From Chryseobacterium sp. BGARF1 (GTDB lineage: Bacteria; Bacteroidota; Bacteroidia; Flavobacteriales; Weeksellaceae), in the NCBI RefSeq assembly GCF_001677955.1, contig NZ_LELA01000089.1:1-64000 (forward strand): a stretch of 64,000 nucleotides of DNA, written 5' to 3'. Numbering within the stretch: position 1 is the first letter of the stretch; every line of letters starts with the position of its first letter. The position numbers and the translations under genes are program-made. The notes under the pieces were generated by a model that saw nothing but the letters and a program-made list of their open reading frames with translations, did not search any database and was not told the DNA's origin. Below, piece by piece: positions 8,488 through 51,745 of this stretch.

Positions 8488-8507
8488 GTTTAGAGTTTAG
8501 AGTTTAG
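8488..8507. repeat. Heptanucleotide repeat GTTTAGA
   Basis: About 2.9 copies of GTTTAGA directly before the DUF1697 start codon. Seven-bp units can gain or lose copies by slippage. Confidence 0.75.
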
Positions 8508-8517
8508 GGTCAAAATT

Positions 8518-8543
8518 ACTTTTTACTTTTTACTTTTTACTTT
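8518..8543. repeat. Heptanucleotide repeat ACTTTTT
   Basis: About 3.7 copies of ACTTTTT (8518-8524, 8525-8531, 8532-8538, 8539-8543). It lies between the DUF1697 start and the end of the upstream gene, in the promoter position. Confidence 0.8.
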
Positions 8544-20057: not shown

Positions 20058-20137
20058 AGAAACAAATTTGAAATTTGATGTTTGAAATTTGAAATTACCA
20101 TCGAATCTCAAATTTCAAATCTCAAATTGTTAATAAT
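20058..20137. repeat. AAATTTGAAATTT palindromic spacer
   Basis: The gap between atpD and atpC is filled by repeated TTTGAAATTTGA blocks on the left and their complements (TCTCAAATTTCAAATC) on the right, giving a long weak hairpin. It makes the false N-terminal extension of atpC. Confidence 0.7.
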
Positions 20138-23203: not shown

Positions 23204-23224
23204 ATCTTTTATCTTTTATCTTTT
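23204..23224. repeat. Heptanucleotide repeat ATCTTTT
   Basis: Three exact copies of ATCTTTT in the divergent promoter region between the MmcQ/YjbR gene and the NAD(P)H-binding protein gene. Confidence 0.85.
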
Positions 23225-23285
23225 ATAATTATCTCAAATTTAGTAAATTTAAAAAGGAAATAATCATGACACAAAACTATTTATT

Positions 23286-37483: not shown

Positions 37484-38902
37484 TTAATCTGTTTTTTTAT
37501 TTCTATTGATAAGATAGTAAACGGGCAAACCGAGAAGAACAATTAAAAATCCCGGCCAAGTGTATTGCTGTTTGTAAATTAAAAGTAACACACAGAAAGT
37601 AGTTCCAATTAAAAGATAAACAATTGGAGTAATTGGGTACAGCCAGGTTTTGTAAGGTCTCTCAAGATTGGGTTGTTTAATTCTCAAGTAAATTACTCCG
37701 AAAACGGTAATCATATAGAACAATACGATGACAAATGAAATCATGTCTAAAAGATTTCCGTACTGTCCGCTCAGACAAAGTAGCGAAGCCCAAACTCCCT
37801 GCATCCAAAGCGCATTTCCAGGAACCTGATTTTTGTTGTTGTCAACGGCAGATTTAAAGAACAATCCATCTTTTGCCATCGTCTGAAAAACTCTTGCTCC
37901 GGCTAAAATTAATCCGTTGTTGCAGCCAAATGTAGAGACCATCACCAAAACAGCGATAATTACAGTTCCTGCACTCCCAAAAATATTCTGTGAAGCGGCA
38001 ACCGCCACTCTGTCATTAGCCGCAAAAGCAATCGAATCTCTATCTAAAGCATTAATGTAAACAAAATTTACTGCGATATACAACAACATTACTGCAGAAG
38101 TCCCCAAAATCATTGCCTTCACAACATTTTTCTTAGGATTCTCAATTTCGCCAGAAACAAAAGTTACGCTTTCCCAGGCAACCGAACTAAACACCGAACC
38201 AACCATTGCGGCAGCGATTCCGCCCATCAAAGTCATACCAGAGATAGATTCCCACCCCGATTGTAAAAAAATGCCTTTATCGTCCTGTTTTAAGTTATTG
38301 AAAGAATCTGTTCCAAAGCTGAAATTTTCAGCCAGGTGAGAAACGTCTACTAAGATAAATCCTAAAGCTATTAAACCCAGCAAAGCAATAATCTTTGAGC
38401 CTGTAAAAACATTTTGAAGTAGTTTACCGCTTTCTACTCCTCTTGTATTGATATAGGTCAGCAAAATAATAACCGCAATTGCCAAAATCTGAATCCATGT
38501 AATTTGAAATGTTCCGCTTTGAAATATCGGCGCAGCATTATTTAATTCAGGAACAAGGTATGCTGTAAATTTCCCGAATGCCATTGCAACCGCAGCAATT
38601 GTTCCGGTCTGAATCACGGTAAACAATCCCCATCCGTAGAGAAATCCCATTTTTTTACCAAAAATCTCTGTAAGGTAAGTGTATTGCCCACCAGCTTTTG
38701 GGAAAAGCGATGACAGTTCGCCATAGCTTATTGCTGCAGCAACGGTCATAATTCCGGTGATTACCCAAACGACAATCATCCAGAACCCAGAACCCAGATT
38801 TCGCATCATATCGGCGCTTACGATAAAAATTCCGCTTCCAATCATCGAACCCATTACCAACATAATGGCGTCCCAAAGTTTTAGTTTTTTCTGCATATTC
38901 AA
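37484..38902 (-). CDS. APC-family amino acid permease
   Basis: 472-residue inner-membrane transporter with about 12 hydrophobic helices. The first helix carries the broken GSMIGSGIFIVSADMM motif that binds the substrate backbone in the LeuT/APC fold, and helix 6 the SVAWESVTFVSGEIENPKKN segment, where the E at the membrane exit is typical of LAT/basic amino acid transporters. It is expected to move amino acids, either by exchange or proton coupling; the substrate cannot be named. Monocistronic, divergent from the DUF4920 gene. Confidence 0.92.
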   Translation of the reverse strand: MNMQKKLKLWDAIMLVMGSMIGSGIFIVSADMMRNLGSGFWMIVVWVITGIMTVAAAISYGELSSLFPKAGGQYTYLTEIFGKKMGFLYGWGLFTVIQTGTIAAVAMAFGKFTAYLVPELNNAAPIFQSGTFQITWIQILAIAVIILLTYINTRGVESGKLLQNVFTGSKIIALLGLIALGFILVDVSHLAENFSFGTDSFNNLKQDDKGIFLQSGWESISGMTLMGGIAAAMVGSVFSSVAWESVTFVSGEIENPKKNVVKAMILGTSAVMLLYIAVNFVYINALDRDSIAFAANDRVAVAASQNIFGSAGTVIIAVLVMVSTFGCNNGLILAGARVFQTMAKDGLFFKSAVDNNKNQVPGNALWMQGVWASLLCLSGQYGNLLDMISFVIVLFYMITVFGVIYLRIKQPNLERPYKTWLYPITPIVYLLIGTTFCVLLLIYKQQYTWPGFLIVLLGLPVYYLINRNKKTD

Positions 38903-42214: not shown

Positions 42215-45200
42215 ACTGAAATTACACTTTTGTACCGTTTATTTGATGTAATTTCTTCATCCAAACCTTTCAGAATTCCAGTCATTCCACACGTTAAACT
42301 ATTAGTCTCAACAAAAATTATTTGGGCTTTTTCAGGCCTATTTATATTAAAAACTTGAAGAGGAATCACAATAATTGAAGCTCAAATTTTAGGTTTCAAA
42401 CACAAGAAAACAACTATTATTTTGGCAATTTACAACCCTAAAAATACATTTTTATTCTTTCAATATGGCCTAATTTGCTAGTCAAAAACTTTCAAAATTC
42501 TCAACATTTTACCGGCTAAATTATTAGTTTCAACAGAAATTATTTGAGCTTTTTAGGACTATTTATCTTGAAAATTTGAAGAGAAATCATAATAATTTAA
42601 GTTCAAATTTTAGTTTTCAAACACAAAAATACAACTGTGATTTTGGCAATTTTCAACCTTGAAAACTCATGTTCACTTCTTCAATTTAATGCAATTTACT
42701 CATCAAAAACTTTGAAAATTATCGTAATTCTTTCTGCCTAATTCATAATTTGAATAGAGGGAATTTCACCTTTTTAAGAGTTGTTTATCTTGGGAAATTG
42801 AAAGAATTCGGCAATAATTTAAGCTCTATTTTTATATTTTCATACAAAAAATCGACTGTTATTTTAGCAATTCTCAGGCCTGAAATTACATTTTCACGCC
42901 TTCGATTTGACGTATTTTGCTCATCTGAAACTTTCAAAATTTTCGAAATCCCCCCTGCTAAATCCATAATTTGAATAGAAATAATTGAACTTTTTTAGAA
43001 CTATTCATCTTGAAATTTCGAGAAAAAATCACAATAATTTAAGCTCAAATTTTGGTTTTTAATCATAAAAAAACGACTATTATTTTAGTGATTTTCAACC
43101 CAGAAATGCATTTTTATTCTGTCTATTTAAAGTAATTTAGTCATCTAAAACTTTCAAAATCTTCTTGACTTTCTTTTATAAATCTAGAATTCAATAGAAA
43201 AAAAATTAAGCTTTTTTAGGGTTATTTATTTTAAAAACGTGAAGAGAAATCACAAAACTTAAACCTAATTTTAGTTTTCAAACACAAAAAAACTACTGTT
43301 ATTTTAGCAATTCTCAACCATGAAACCACACTTTTGGCCCTTAGATTTGATGTAATTTACTCATCAAAAACTTTAAAAACTTCAGTAATTCTTCTTGCCA
43401 AATTCACAATTTGAATAGAAATAATTTGACCTTTCTAAGGTTTAATTACCTTAAAGTTTCGAGAAAAAAAGACATTAATTCAAACTCAAATTTTATTTTT
43501 TAACTATAAAAAACAACGGTTATTTTAGCAATTCTCAACCTTGAAAACACCTTTTTACTCCTTCGATTTAATGCAATTTATTCATCTAAAACTTTCAAAA
43601 ATCACGTAATTATTACCCCTAAATTCATAATTTGAATAGAGATAATTCGACCTTTCTAAAGTTTAATTACCTTAAAATTTCGAGAAAAAATAAGATTGAT
43701 TTAAGCTCAAATTCTAGTTTTCAAACACAAAAAATCAACAAATATTTTGGCAATTTTCAACCCAGAAAACACATTTTTGTTCCGTCGATTTGGTATAATT
43801 TATTCATCAGAAACTTTCAAAATTTCAGTAATTCTTTCTGCAAAATTCATAATTTGAATAGAGAAAAACTGAGTTTTTTAGGACTACTTAAATTAAAAAT
43901 TTCAAGATAAATCACAAAAAATTAAGTTCTATTTTGGGCTTTAAGTACAAAAAAGCAATTGTTATTTTTGGCAATTTTCGACCCTGAAATTTCACTTTTG
44001 TTCCGTTGATTTAATATAATTTACTAACCTAAAATTACAGTAATTCTTCCTGTTAAAATCATAATTTTAGTAAAGAAAACTTGAGCTTTTCAGGATTATT
44101 TATCTAAAAAAAACGAGGAAATATCATAATAAATTAAGCTTGTTTTTAAGTTTTTAAGAATAAAAAACCACTATTATTTTGCTAATTTTAAACCTTAAAA
44201 ATACATTTTTGCTCCTTCCATTTGATGTAATTTACTAATCTAAAAATTCACAATTTGAATAGAAATAACTTGACCTTTTTAAGGATTATTTATCGTAAAA
44301 ATACGAGGAAATATTATAATAATTTAAGTTCGTTTTTGGGTTTTCAAGTACAAAAAGCAACAGTTATTTGGGCAATTTCAAACCTTAAAAACACATTTTT
44401 ATTCCATCGATTTGATGTAATTCACTCATCAAAAACTTTGAAAATTTCAGTAATTCTTCCTACCAAATTCACAATTTGAACCGAGATAATTTGACCTTTT
44501 AAAGAATTTTTCATCTTAAAAATTTGTGAAACATCACATTGATTTAAGATAAAATTTTAGTTTTCAAACATAAAAAAGCAACTATTATTTGGGTAATTTT
44601 CAATCCTGAAAAAACATTTTTATTCCGTCGATTTGGTGTAATTTATTCATCAAAAACTTTGAAATTTTCAGTAATTATTCCTACCAAATTCATAATTTGA
44701 ATAGAGATAATTTGACCTTTCTAAGGTTTAATTATCTTAAAAAACGAGGAAATATCATCATAAATCAAGCTCGTTTTTTAGTTTTCAAGTACAAAAAACC
44801 ACTGTTATTTTGGCAATTCTAAGCCATGAAAATACATTTTTATTCCCTCGGTTTGGTGTAATTTGCTAATCAAAAATTTCCAACATTTCATCCGTTAAAT
44901 TATTAGTTTCAGAAGGGGAAATTTGAACTTTTAAAGGCTTAATTATCTTAAAATTTCGAGAAAAATCATAATAATTTAAGCTCGTTTTTTAGTTTTCAAG
45001 TACAAAAAAGAAACTTTTATTTTGGTAATTCACGGCATTTTGTTTCTTTAATTTGATGCAATTTGCTCATCTAAAATCTTCAAAACTTTCGGAATTCTTC
45101 CTGCTAAATTCACAATTTAAATAGAGATAATTTGACATTTTTAAGGCTTACTTACCTTCAAAACTTGAAGAGAAATCATAATTATTAAGTTCGTTTTTTA

Positions 45201-45466
45201 GTATCTCAAACACAAAAAAAACTTTTATTTTGCCAATTCTAAACCCTGAAAAAACATTTTTATTCCGTTCATTTGATACAATTTGCCCATCAAAAATTTT
45301 CAAAATCTGAGTAATTTTTCACATAAAATTCATAATTTCAATAGAGAAAATTTGAACTTTTTTAGGATTATTTATTTAAAAAAATGAGCATGAATTTCAC
45401 AATAATTCATGTTCATTTTTTAGGTTTCAAACAAAAAAAACAACTGCTATTTAGGTAATTTAAAAC
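42215..45466. repeat. Degenerate tandem array, about 15 units, period ~221 bp
   Basis: Aligning on the CTTTTTAGG-type anchor gives positions 42327, 42549, 42770, 42990, 43211, 43431, 43652, 43873, 44086, 44275, 44496, 44717, 44928, 45137 and 45358; the steps are 222, 221, 220, 221, 220, 221, 221, 213, 189, 221, 221, 211, 209 and 221. The units differ from each other at many bases, so this is an old array and not an assembly stutter. Recurrent blocks: TTTTCAAACACAAAAAA, TTATTTTGGCAATTTTCAA, TTTGATG-N9-CATCAAA and ATTCATAATTTGAAT. It is AT-rich, with frequent stops in all frames. Partial units flank both ends. Confidence 0.9.
42741..45342. promoter_or_regulatory. Recurrent ATTCATAATTTGAAT dyads in the array
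   Basis: Exact copies at 42741, 43623, 43845 and 44688; one-base variants at 42962, 43402, 44246 and 45328; two-base variants at 44467 and 45108. Spacings are 221 or a multiple, within 1-2 bp. ATTCA and TGAAT form the half-sites. A few units (near 42300, 42520 and 44900) have a different ATTAGTTTCAA block in the same place. Confidence 0.65.
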
Positions 45467-49966: not shown

Positions 49967-50047
49967 TGTGTGTTAAAAATCTTTATGCAAAGTTACTATT
50001 ATTCTGCTGAATATTAACAAATTTTAAGCCATTGTGTAACTTATATC

Positions 50048-51526
50048 TTAGTTTTTAAGAATCTGATAAGAATTGCTCCCGCTGCAAAAAATGCAGACAT
50101 CGAAATAAATGCATATTGCATATTGCATATTGTGAAACTTTTGAATAAACACACTGAAGATAAGCATTCCGGTAATAATTGCAATTTTTTCAAGTACATC
50201 ATAGAAACTGAAATACGTTGTATTTTCCATAGAATTTTCAGGTAAAAGTTTTGAATAAGTAGACCTAGACATTGCCTGAAGACCTCCCATTACCAAACCA
50301 ATTAAACCAGCCAAACCATAAAACTGAAGCTGAACATTTGGATTTTCTTTGTTTAAAGAATACGCAGATAAACAACAAGCAATCCAGATAATCACAGCAA
50401 TGGTGATTACATTTTTATTTCCAATTTTTTTAGATAATCTTGAAAATAAAAACGCTCCAAAAATTGCAATAATCTGAATAACTAAAATCGTAATAATCAA
50501 TTTATATTTATCGGCTTCTTTAGGAAAAATTACTGTACTTCCGAAAGGAACTGCCATTAAAAAGATGGTCTGCATCCCTACACTGTAAAAGAAGAAACTT
50601 GACAGGAAAAATTTCAAAGCTTTGTCTGAAAAAAGCTTGTTCCCTACACTGTATAGTTCTCTGAAACTCTCTTTCGCAATATCTTTATAAAAACTGATAT
50701 TATCTTTTAAAACTTCAAAAAAACCTCCTTGTTCCTGGTGTTTTTTAAAGATATTTTTATAGTTTAAGAGCACTAAATCTTTAGGAAGTTTCTCTTTCAC
50801 ATCTCCAAACTGCGGTAAATGTTTGAATGTATATTGTGAAAAACCAAACCACCAAGCTCCCGTTAATAAAAAGCTGATTCTGATATAAATTTTAGCCTGA
50901 TCCGGTCCTTTTGCAACCACCTGAATTAAAACCAAACAGATAATCAATAAAACTACAGAACCAATATATCCATAAATATATCCTTTAGCAGACAATGCAT
51001 CTTGTTTATCAGGAGTAGCAATATCTGGTAAAAACGAGTTATAAAACACTAAACTTCCCCAAAACCCGACACTCGCAGTAATACTAAAAAGCAATCCTAA
51101 AAAGATGTTTTCCATACCTGTAAACATCGCTAATCCCATACAAGATGTAGCTCCTAGGTAACAGAAAAACTGAAGAAATGATTTTTTATTACCAATCGTA
51201 TCTGCCAAAGAAGATAAGAATGGAGACAATAACACCACTAAAAAGAATGAAATCGCATACGAAAAACTTAATACCGCTTCCGGCTCATAAGCATCCCCGA
51301 AGATCTTAATCATGTTTCGCACAGGAATTTCCTGAACTTCTCCTGCCTCCGGAACAAACTCCTTTTTATTGTAAGCAGTCGTAAGAATTGTATAGTAAAT
51401 CGGGAATATCGCAGAAGTAATCACCAAAGAATACACAGAGTTTGCCCAGTCGTAGACTGCCCAAGCTTTCATGATTTTTGGATTATTTTTTATATTTTGA
51501 GTAGGTTGAATTTCAGTTTCAGACAT
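50048..51526 (-). CDS. MFS transporter (UMF1/Atg22-like) with frameshifted C-terminus
   Basis: 492 residues from the ATG at 51526 (MSETEIQPTQ); the longer ORF from 51571 reads through promoter sequence. Twelve-helix MFS architecture: KAWAVYDWANSVYSLVITSAIFPIYYTILT opens the UMF1-type fold and AMSRSTYSKLLPENSMENTTYFSFYDVLEKIAIITG is the typical late loop. Three copies of GCATATT at 50111-50131 shift the frame at the last helix. With two copies the frame would read MQYAFISMSAFFAAGAILIR to a stop at 50041, which looks like a normal helix 12; the present frame ends ICIYFDVCIFCSGSNSY. So the window holds an indel mutant or an off-state. Substrate unknown. Confidence 0.88.
   Translation of the reverse strand: MSETEIQPTQNIKNNPKIMKAWAVYDWANSVYSLVITSAIFPIYYTILTTAYNKKEFVPEAGEVQEIPVRNMIKIFGDAYEPEAVLSFSYAISFFLVVLLSPFLSSLADTIGNKKSFLQFFCYLGATSCMGLAMFTGMENIFLGLLFSITASVGFWGSLVFYNSFLPDIATPDKQDALSAKGYIYGYIGSVVLLIICLVLIQVVAKGPDQAKIYIRISFLLTGAWWFGFSQYTFKHLPQFGDVKEKLPKDLVLLNYKNIFKKHQEQGGFFEVLKDNISFYKDIAKESFRELYSVGNKLFSDKALKFFLSSFFFYSVGMQTIFLMAVPFGSTVIFPKEADKYKLIITILVIQIIAIFGAFLFSRLSKKIGNKNVITIAVIIWIACCLSAYSLNKENPNVQLQFYGLAGLIGLVMGGLQAMSRSTYSKLLPENSMENTTYFSFYDVLEKIAIITGMLIFSVFIQKFHNMQYAICIYFDVCIFCSGSNSYQILKN
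50111..50131. repeat. Coding heptanucleotide repeat GCATATT x3
   Basis: Three perfect copies (50111-50117, 50118-50124, 50125-50131) inside the end of the MFS gene. Each 7-bp step changes the reading frame. Confidence 0.95.
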
Positions 51527-51745
51527 TTTCAAATGAGTTAGTTGCACAAAAATAGAAAAACCGCTGAACATTCGGCAGTTTTTATTTTTTTTAGTCTAAA
51601 TTTTATTGATTTGTTAAAATTAGACGTAGTTGAAAAATATATAAACATTGATAAAGGTGTCGCTTCTACGTTGCTTTCAATGTTTTCTCTTAATTTTAGT
51701 TACAAAGGTTTGGCTCCTGCGGCGCAAGTTTTATTAAACATAAAA

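Follow-up and report, generated by a model that had tools for sequence, protein, structure and literature searches.

Heptamer-rich bacterial genomes have already been described, and the survey of Mrazek 2007, as relayed in the available parts of PMC4679880 and PMC4692102, names heptanucleotide repeats as the most abundant class in most of the genomes examined. The same parts of these two sources carry the proposal that a 7-base polymerase contact favours slippage. Among the Bacteroidetes, Gramella forsetii and A. sublithincola are reported to have heptamer arrays that are missing at the same place in relatives (PMC4679880, in the sections available). In Haemophilus influenzae, heptamers are located in the promoters of hmw1A and hmw2A, and the accessible text of PMC2651432 also lists a 14-unit heptamer that lies inside a gene and goes with a frameshift, and credits strain Rd KW20 with 126 heptamers at a two-unit threshold and none at three. 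The portion of PMC4060949 that is available contains nothing on heptamers, and a literature search on phase variation and on tandem or simple sequence repeats in Chryseobacterium and Flavobacterium, outside of which most subscription papers lie, returned nothing relevant.

The locus considered here is a heptanucleotide tract of Chryseobacterium sp. BGARF1, located in a window of 64,000 nucleotides (the whole stretch that was analysed, from contig NZ_LELA01000089.1 of assembly GCF_001677955.1). As far as the available descriptions go, the arrays of Chryseobacterium resemble the Mrazek type in that period 7 is the most over-represented, in that most arrays lie between genes and in that 7-base slippage is proposed, but they consist of many AT-rich units and not of one dominant unit (GGGAATC, TAACTGA), and one of them is in a gene. 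With G. forsetii and A. sublithincola they share several heptamer arrays in intergenic regions that are absent from that position in close relatives, whereas the arrays of those species are centred on TAACTGA, and the available sections of PMC4679880 report none in a transporter gene. The likeness to hmw1A/hmw2A lies in the 7-base units and in the one strain with an in-gene, frameshifted array; according to the accessible text, however, the hmw heptamers run to 13-38 units and their effects on expression have been tested, whereas the transporter tract has three units in one genome, with switching unsupported.

The repeat tract and the transporter gene

The initial annotation of the window had placed three copies of GCATATT at 50111-50131 within an MFS transporter gene, with the present frame ending at 50048 and the alternative one at 50041. 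The coordinates are correct, all units are perfect and both frames end as claimed. The features concerned are:

50048..51571, minus strand: UMF1/Atg22-like MFS transporter gene with an altered end (ORF of 507 codons, PF11700 match)
50111..50131, minus strand: three tandem AATATGC units (GCATATT on the plus strand), one more than in relatives
50051..50110, minus strand: codons 3′ of the repeat, in a frame unused by relatives, replacing the last helix and the basic end
50048-50050, minus strand: stop triplet of the present frame (ORF call)
50041..50043, minus strand: stop triplet of the relatives' frame (sequence reading and alignment of the ends)

Around the tract, the perfect period-7 run covers 50110-50132 (23 bases, 3.3 units), which makes it a heptanucleotide simple sequence repeat in the sense of at least three perfect 7-base units. 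Within the window the two-unit 14-mer is confined to this tract, where it occurs at two overlapping positions; none of 100 shuffled sequences contained it. The window holds three perfect period-7 arrays of at least three units, compared with a mean of 0.00 (40 shuffles) or 0.05 (20 shuffles).

By its profile match the gene product belongs to the PF11700 family ('Vacuole effluxer Atg22 like'), though with an altered end, and scores 224.9 bits (cut-off 24.1) over residues 31-492; there is also an MFS_1 match (50.4 against a cut-off of 33.4) and no match in NCBIfam. The name UMF1 is carried over from the initial annotation; none of the matches for this protein gave it. The true start is probably a later ATG at about 51526 (MSETEIQ), because four relatives (L034, L053, L069 and L080) have stop codons between the two possible starts.

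The BGARF1 protein ends in NMQYAICIYFDVCIFCSGSNSYQILKN, and its nearest relatives end in NMQYAFISMSAFFAAGAILIRFLKTKI or close to that; the last helix and end that are usual in the genus are absent from the BGARF1 protein and are replaced after NMQYA. Specifically, the best 19-residue hydropathy mean of the last segment is 1.02, compared with 1.70-2.06 in 11 relatives, and the last eight residues include one that is basic, where relatives have three. AlphaFold gave a single last helix for a relative (482-502; block means 64, 68, 51) and a split one for the BGARF1 protein (482-496 and 498-506; block means 48, 41, 38), both being low-confidence models (overall 52 and 51, respectively), and structure prediction was for this reason rejected as proof of helix loss.

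Should the new end be a functional variant under selection, a frame that is still open and a retained length of 507 residues would be in keeping with it. Yet the replaced part includes near-end positions at which 27 homologues do not vary (e.g. R501), and the last segment has become less hydrophobic; we consider such a variant highly improbable; damage to the transporter by the altered end is the likely outcome.

Direction and age of the change

Searching the genus with the transporter gave matches in 173 of 173 genomes, BGARF1 among them, and 30 of the loci were aligned at their ends: BGARF1, one locus cut by a contig end (L030) and 28 other homologues. All 28 have 7 bases fewer at the tract, a hydrophobic last helix and, in most cases, a basic end. 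Stop codons within the matched stretch were seen in three (L010, L023 and L027), those of L010 and L023 falling before the start (the same records recur in the second set). This second set, which partly overlaps with the first, comprised the best 80 of 215 loci from named genomes; 77 are uninterrupted up to a hydrophobic end like that of the relatives, and the other three are either cut by a contig end (L042) or broken elsewhere (L044, L054). The three-unit string is present in 1 of the 173 genomes, which is BGARF1.

Because the 28 homologues lack the 7 bases and the string occurs in that one genome, the extra GCATATT unit is, on this comparison, derived. The initial annotation had asked for the C-terminus to be aligned with homologues, and had held that homologues with the three-copy frame and end would speak against it; the alignment gave the two-unit frame and hydrophobic end throughout, and the three-copy frame and end in 0 of 28. 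An old alternative C-terminus shared across the genus, at which matches reaching query residue 498 or 506 had hinted, was also rejected, as no homologue read has the BGARF1 end.

The codons for N-M-Q-Y-A read AATATGCAATATGC, that is, two AATATGC units, in 8 of the 28 homologues, and the remaining 20 have no two-unit AATATGC run; G010 and G056 likewise have two units at the tract. A motif scan of 67 sites, a narrow one that missed many loci (BGARF1 included), found none with more than two units. A repeat tract kept in related lineages was looked for and not found, the two units of sister species being often interrupted. Judged from these codons, the near species carry the two-unit stretch as ordinary coding sequence, with no sign of purposeful upkeep.

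The age of the change can be approached by comparison with the near relative G141 (Chryseobacterium sp. YIM B08800). Of the 480 codons 5′ of the repeat, 90 differ synonymously and 6 by a replacement. The 70 bases that follow the repeat differ at 3 positions; in the frame that relatives use, every one of these differences is synonymous, whereas in the BGARF1 frame all three would alter the product and one of them creates the present stop. This is modest evidence, with the branches unpolarised, that the frameshift is younger than the three downstream substitutions, and the extra unit is probably recent.

Other breaks in the transporter gene

The transporter gene is also disrupted in other members of the genus. 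A 20-bp tandem duplication, upstream of the BGARF1 site, shifts the frame and is recorded for G010 and for the loci L044 (C. balustinum DSM 16775) and L192; in G056 (L193, a single-contig assembly) an A run is one base shorter and the frame is shifted, possibly as a result of sequencing error; and in C. koreense CCUG 49689 (L054) there is an in-frame TAA at codon 193, with the frame open on both sides. With a relative's protein as query, at least 8 of the 173 genomes gave two matches each among the matches listed, namely BGARF1, G010, G056, G028, G052, G065, G128 and G135; the case of G065 is a cut at a contig end, and the assemblies of G128 and G135 are 75% and 73% complete, respectively.

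Of 32 near genomes, 3 have a broken copy of the gene, and in a further one it is cut by the end of its contig. In the same 32 genomes, a neighbouring GHMP kinase gene always has a full-length match without stops, and a PutA-like neighbour always matches along at least 387 of its 388 residues. A higher rate of breakage in the transporter gene than in these two neighbours was considered but not retained, the counts (3 of 32, as against 0 of 32 for either neighbour) being too small.

Given that the BGARF1 genome is a draft in 260 contigs, the third unit might itself be an error of sequencing or assembly. The two neighbouring genes tested are nevertheless intact in BGARF1, the gain of exactly one 7-bp unit is an unusual error for short reads, and assemblers rather tend to collapse short repeats; all of this counts against an error, which we regard as very unlikely.

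Period-7 arrays in the genome and the genus

Perfect arrays of at least three units were counted in 673,406 of the 4,675,015 bases of BGARF1 (the window and other contigs, mostly the larger ones and not a random choice). There are 20 arrays of period 4, 1 of period 5, 2 of period 6 and 12 of period 7, and none of periods 8-15. Eight of the 12 period-7 arrays reach at least four units (maximum 10). Eleven of the 12 lie outside ORFs, the twelfth being the transporter tract. Coding sequence was here any ATG ORF of at least 120 codons, such ORFs covering 82% of the sample; when other start codons are allowed, the period-7 array of L118 overlaps the upstream end of an ORF. Among non-coding stretches of at least two units, 11 of 46 with period 7 reach three units, as against 2 of 73 with period 6 (Fisher P 0.0005, a value that treats arrays as independent).

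Period-7 arrays of at least three units were also found elsewhere in the genus: six in 400 kb of G069, one in 200 kb of G118 and one in 200 kb of G012. In 400 kb pooled from 20 further genomes there were four, together with one array each of periods 5, 6 and 8. The extra unit in the transporter gene fits a lineage-wide tendency towards period-7 arrays, which are elsewhere confined almost entirely to DNA outside genes.

Two of the intergenic arrays in the window vary in unit number between species, and 16 genomes were searched for each:

23204..23226, no strand: ATCTTTT x3.3, intergenic, unit number varying between species
8516..8543, no strand: TTACTTT x4.0, intergenic, unit number varying between species
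8488-8507, no strand: GTTTAGA x2.9, beside the TTACTTT array

The ATCTTTT array has 3.3 units in BGARF1, 2.7 in G094, 4.7 in G010, 7.7 in G069, 8.7 in G141, 15.9 in G038 and 17.9 in G065; an array of at least 2.5 units was not found in G056, G165 and G118, and six other genomes gave partial matches only. For TTACTTT the numbers are 4 in BGARF1, 10.1 in G069, 4.9 in G094, 3 in G010, 3 in G165, 6 in G141 and 8.1 in G031, with no array of at least 2.5 units in G056, G038, G065, G118 and G020 and partial matches only in four others. The unit length of the array adjoining TTACTTT is 7 bp in some genomes and 8 bp in G010, G165, G141 and G031, where the array has 4-9 units. A strict rule of 7 bases only was accordingly rejected: it is contradicted by these period-8 arrays at one intergenic site, by a BGARF1 period-6 array with 7.2 units, and by the single period-8 and period-6 arrays of the 20 further genomes.

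The window contains other repetitive or structured features. A perfect period-7 stretch (CCAGAAC x2.7) lies at 38780-38798 inside a 472-codon ORF, and the imperfect 7-bp arrays AAATTTG x4.7 and AATCTCA x3.4 at 20064-20127 were excluded from the perfect-array counts. About 3.2 kb of tandem units, roughly 190-221 bp each, occupy 42241-45464; one ORF of at least 80 codons is wholly within this region (92 codons, TTG start), the region has no match in Rfam, and 42241-44246 has none in the plasmid collection. The sole Rfam match in the window is a Flavo-1 RNA at 1163-1256 (62.7 bits, gathering score 42).

Origin of the extra unit

The initial annotation had left two options, a tract that could switch the protein between two forms and a recent mutation. 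The former would correspond to a phase-variable contingency locus, in which the tract flips between two and three units in the population and gives the usual or the altered end. In its favour, the period-7 arrays of the lineage do vary between species by whole units, and the H. influenzae survey, in the accessible text of PMC2651432, uses a three-unit threshold for heptamers and includes a frameshifting heptamer within a gene. The whole-unit changes, however, were seen at two intergenic arrays and not at the transporter, where no homologous site read exceeds two units: no homologue in the genus has three or more, and sister species have two units only, often interrupted, so that nothing looks kept for switching. 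In addition, the GCATATT tract is short, and the gene would by its family encode an inner-membrane transporter, not a typical surface antigen. We consider phase variation at this site quite unlikely, and the switching half of the earlier suggestion finds no support. The other half is supported, within the limits of a single genome, by the one occurrence among 173 genomes, the two-unit frame and end of the 28 homologues and the mostly synonymous codon changes upstream.

We regard it as likely, with good confidence, that the third unit arose recently through tandem duplication, with strand slippage as the most likely mechanism, in a lineage that tends to form period-7 arrays. More specifically, the N-M-Q-Y-A codons of near relatives would by chance read as two AATATGC units; in the BGARF1 lineage one unit would have been copied again (+7 bp), thereby moving the last ~20 codons to another frame; a less hydrophobic, more polar tail would have taken the place of the conserved final helix and its basic terminus; and the protein length would have stayed at 507 residues by coincidence. 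The three units, their derived state and the change of frame are observed, and the recency of the duplication is supported by the comparisons above. We infer slippage as the source of the extra unit and an impaired transporter as its effect; the slip is probably an ordinary mutation, and probably a harmful one for the transporter.

Two qualifications concern this account of a recent duplication. Firstly, since relatives carry breaks of other kinds in this gene, relaxed constraint on it could matter as much as slippage. Secondly, the period-8 arrays at one intergenic site and the period-6 array with 7.2 units count against a strict period-7 version. A broader idea is that a habit of replication or repair in this lineage grows arrays mostly by 7-base steps from chance two-unit seeds, which would make the transporter tract a newborn in-gene array and a potential two-state switch of the last helix; this we hold to be unlikely.

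Significance

Taken alone, the tract amounts to a recent frameshift in one transporter gene. What it offers is an illustrative case: comparison with sister species makes visible the seed of two units, the addition of a third and the effect of that addition. Because the intergenic 7-base arrays of the genus vary in unit number, Chryseobacterium is a convenient test ground for the 7-base slippage preference, for which the polymerase proposal is the only explanation in the literature, as represented by the available sections of PMC4679880. The variable intergenic 7-base arrays could double as typing markers.
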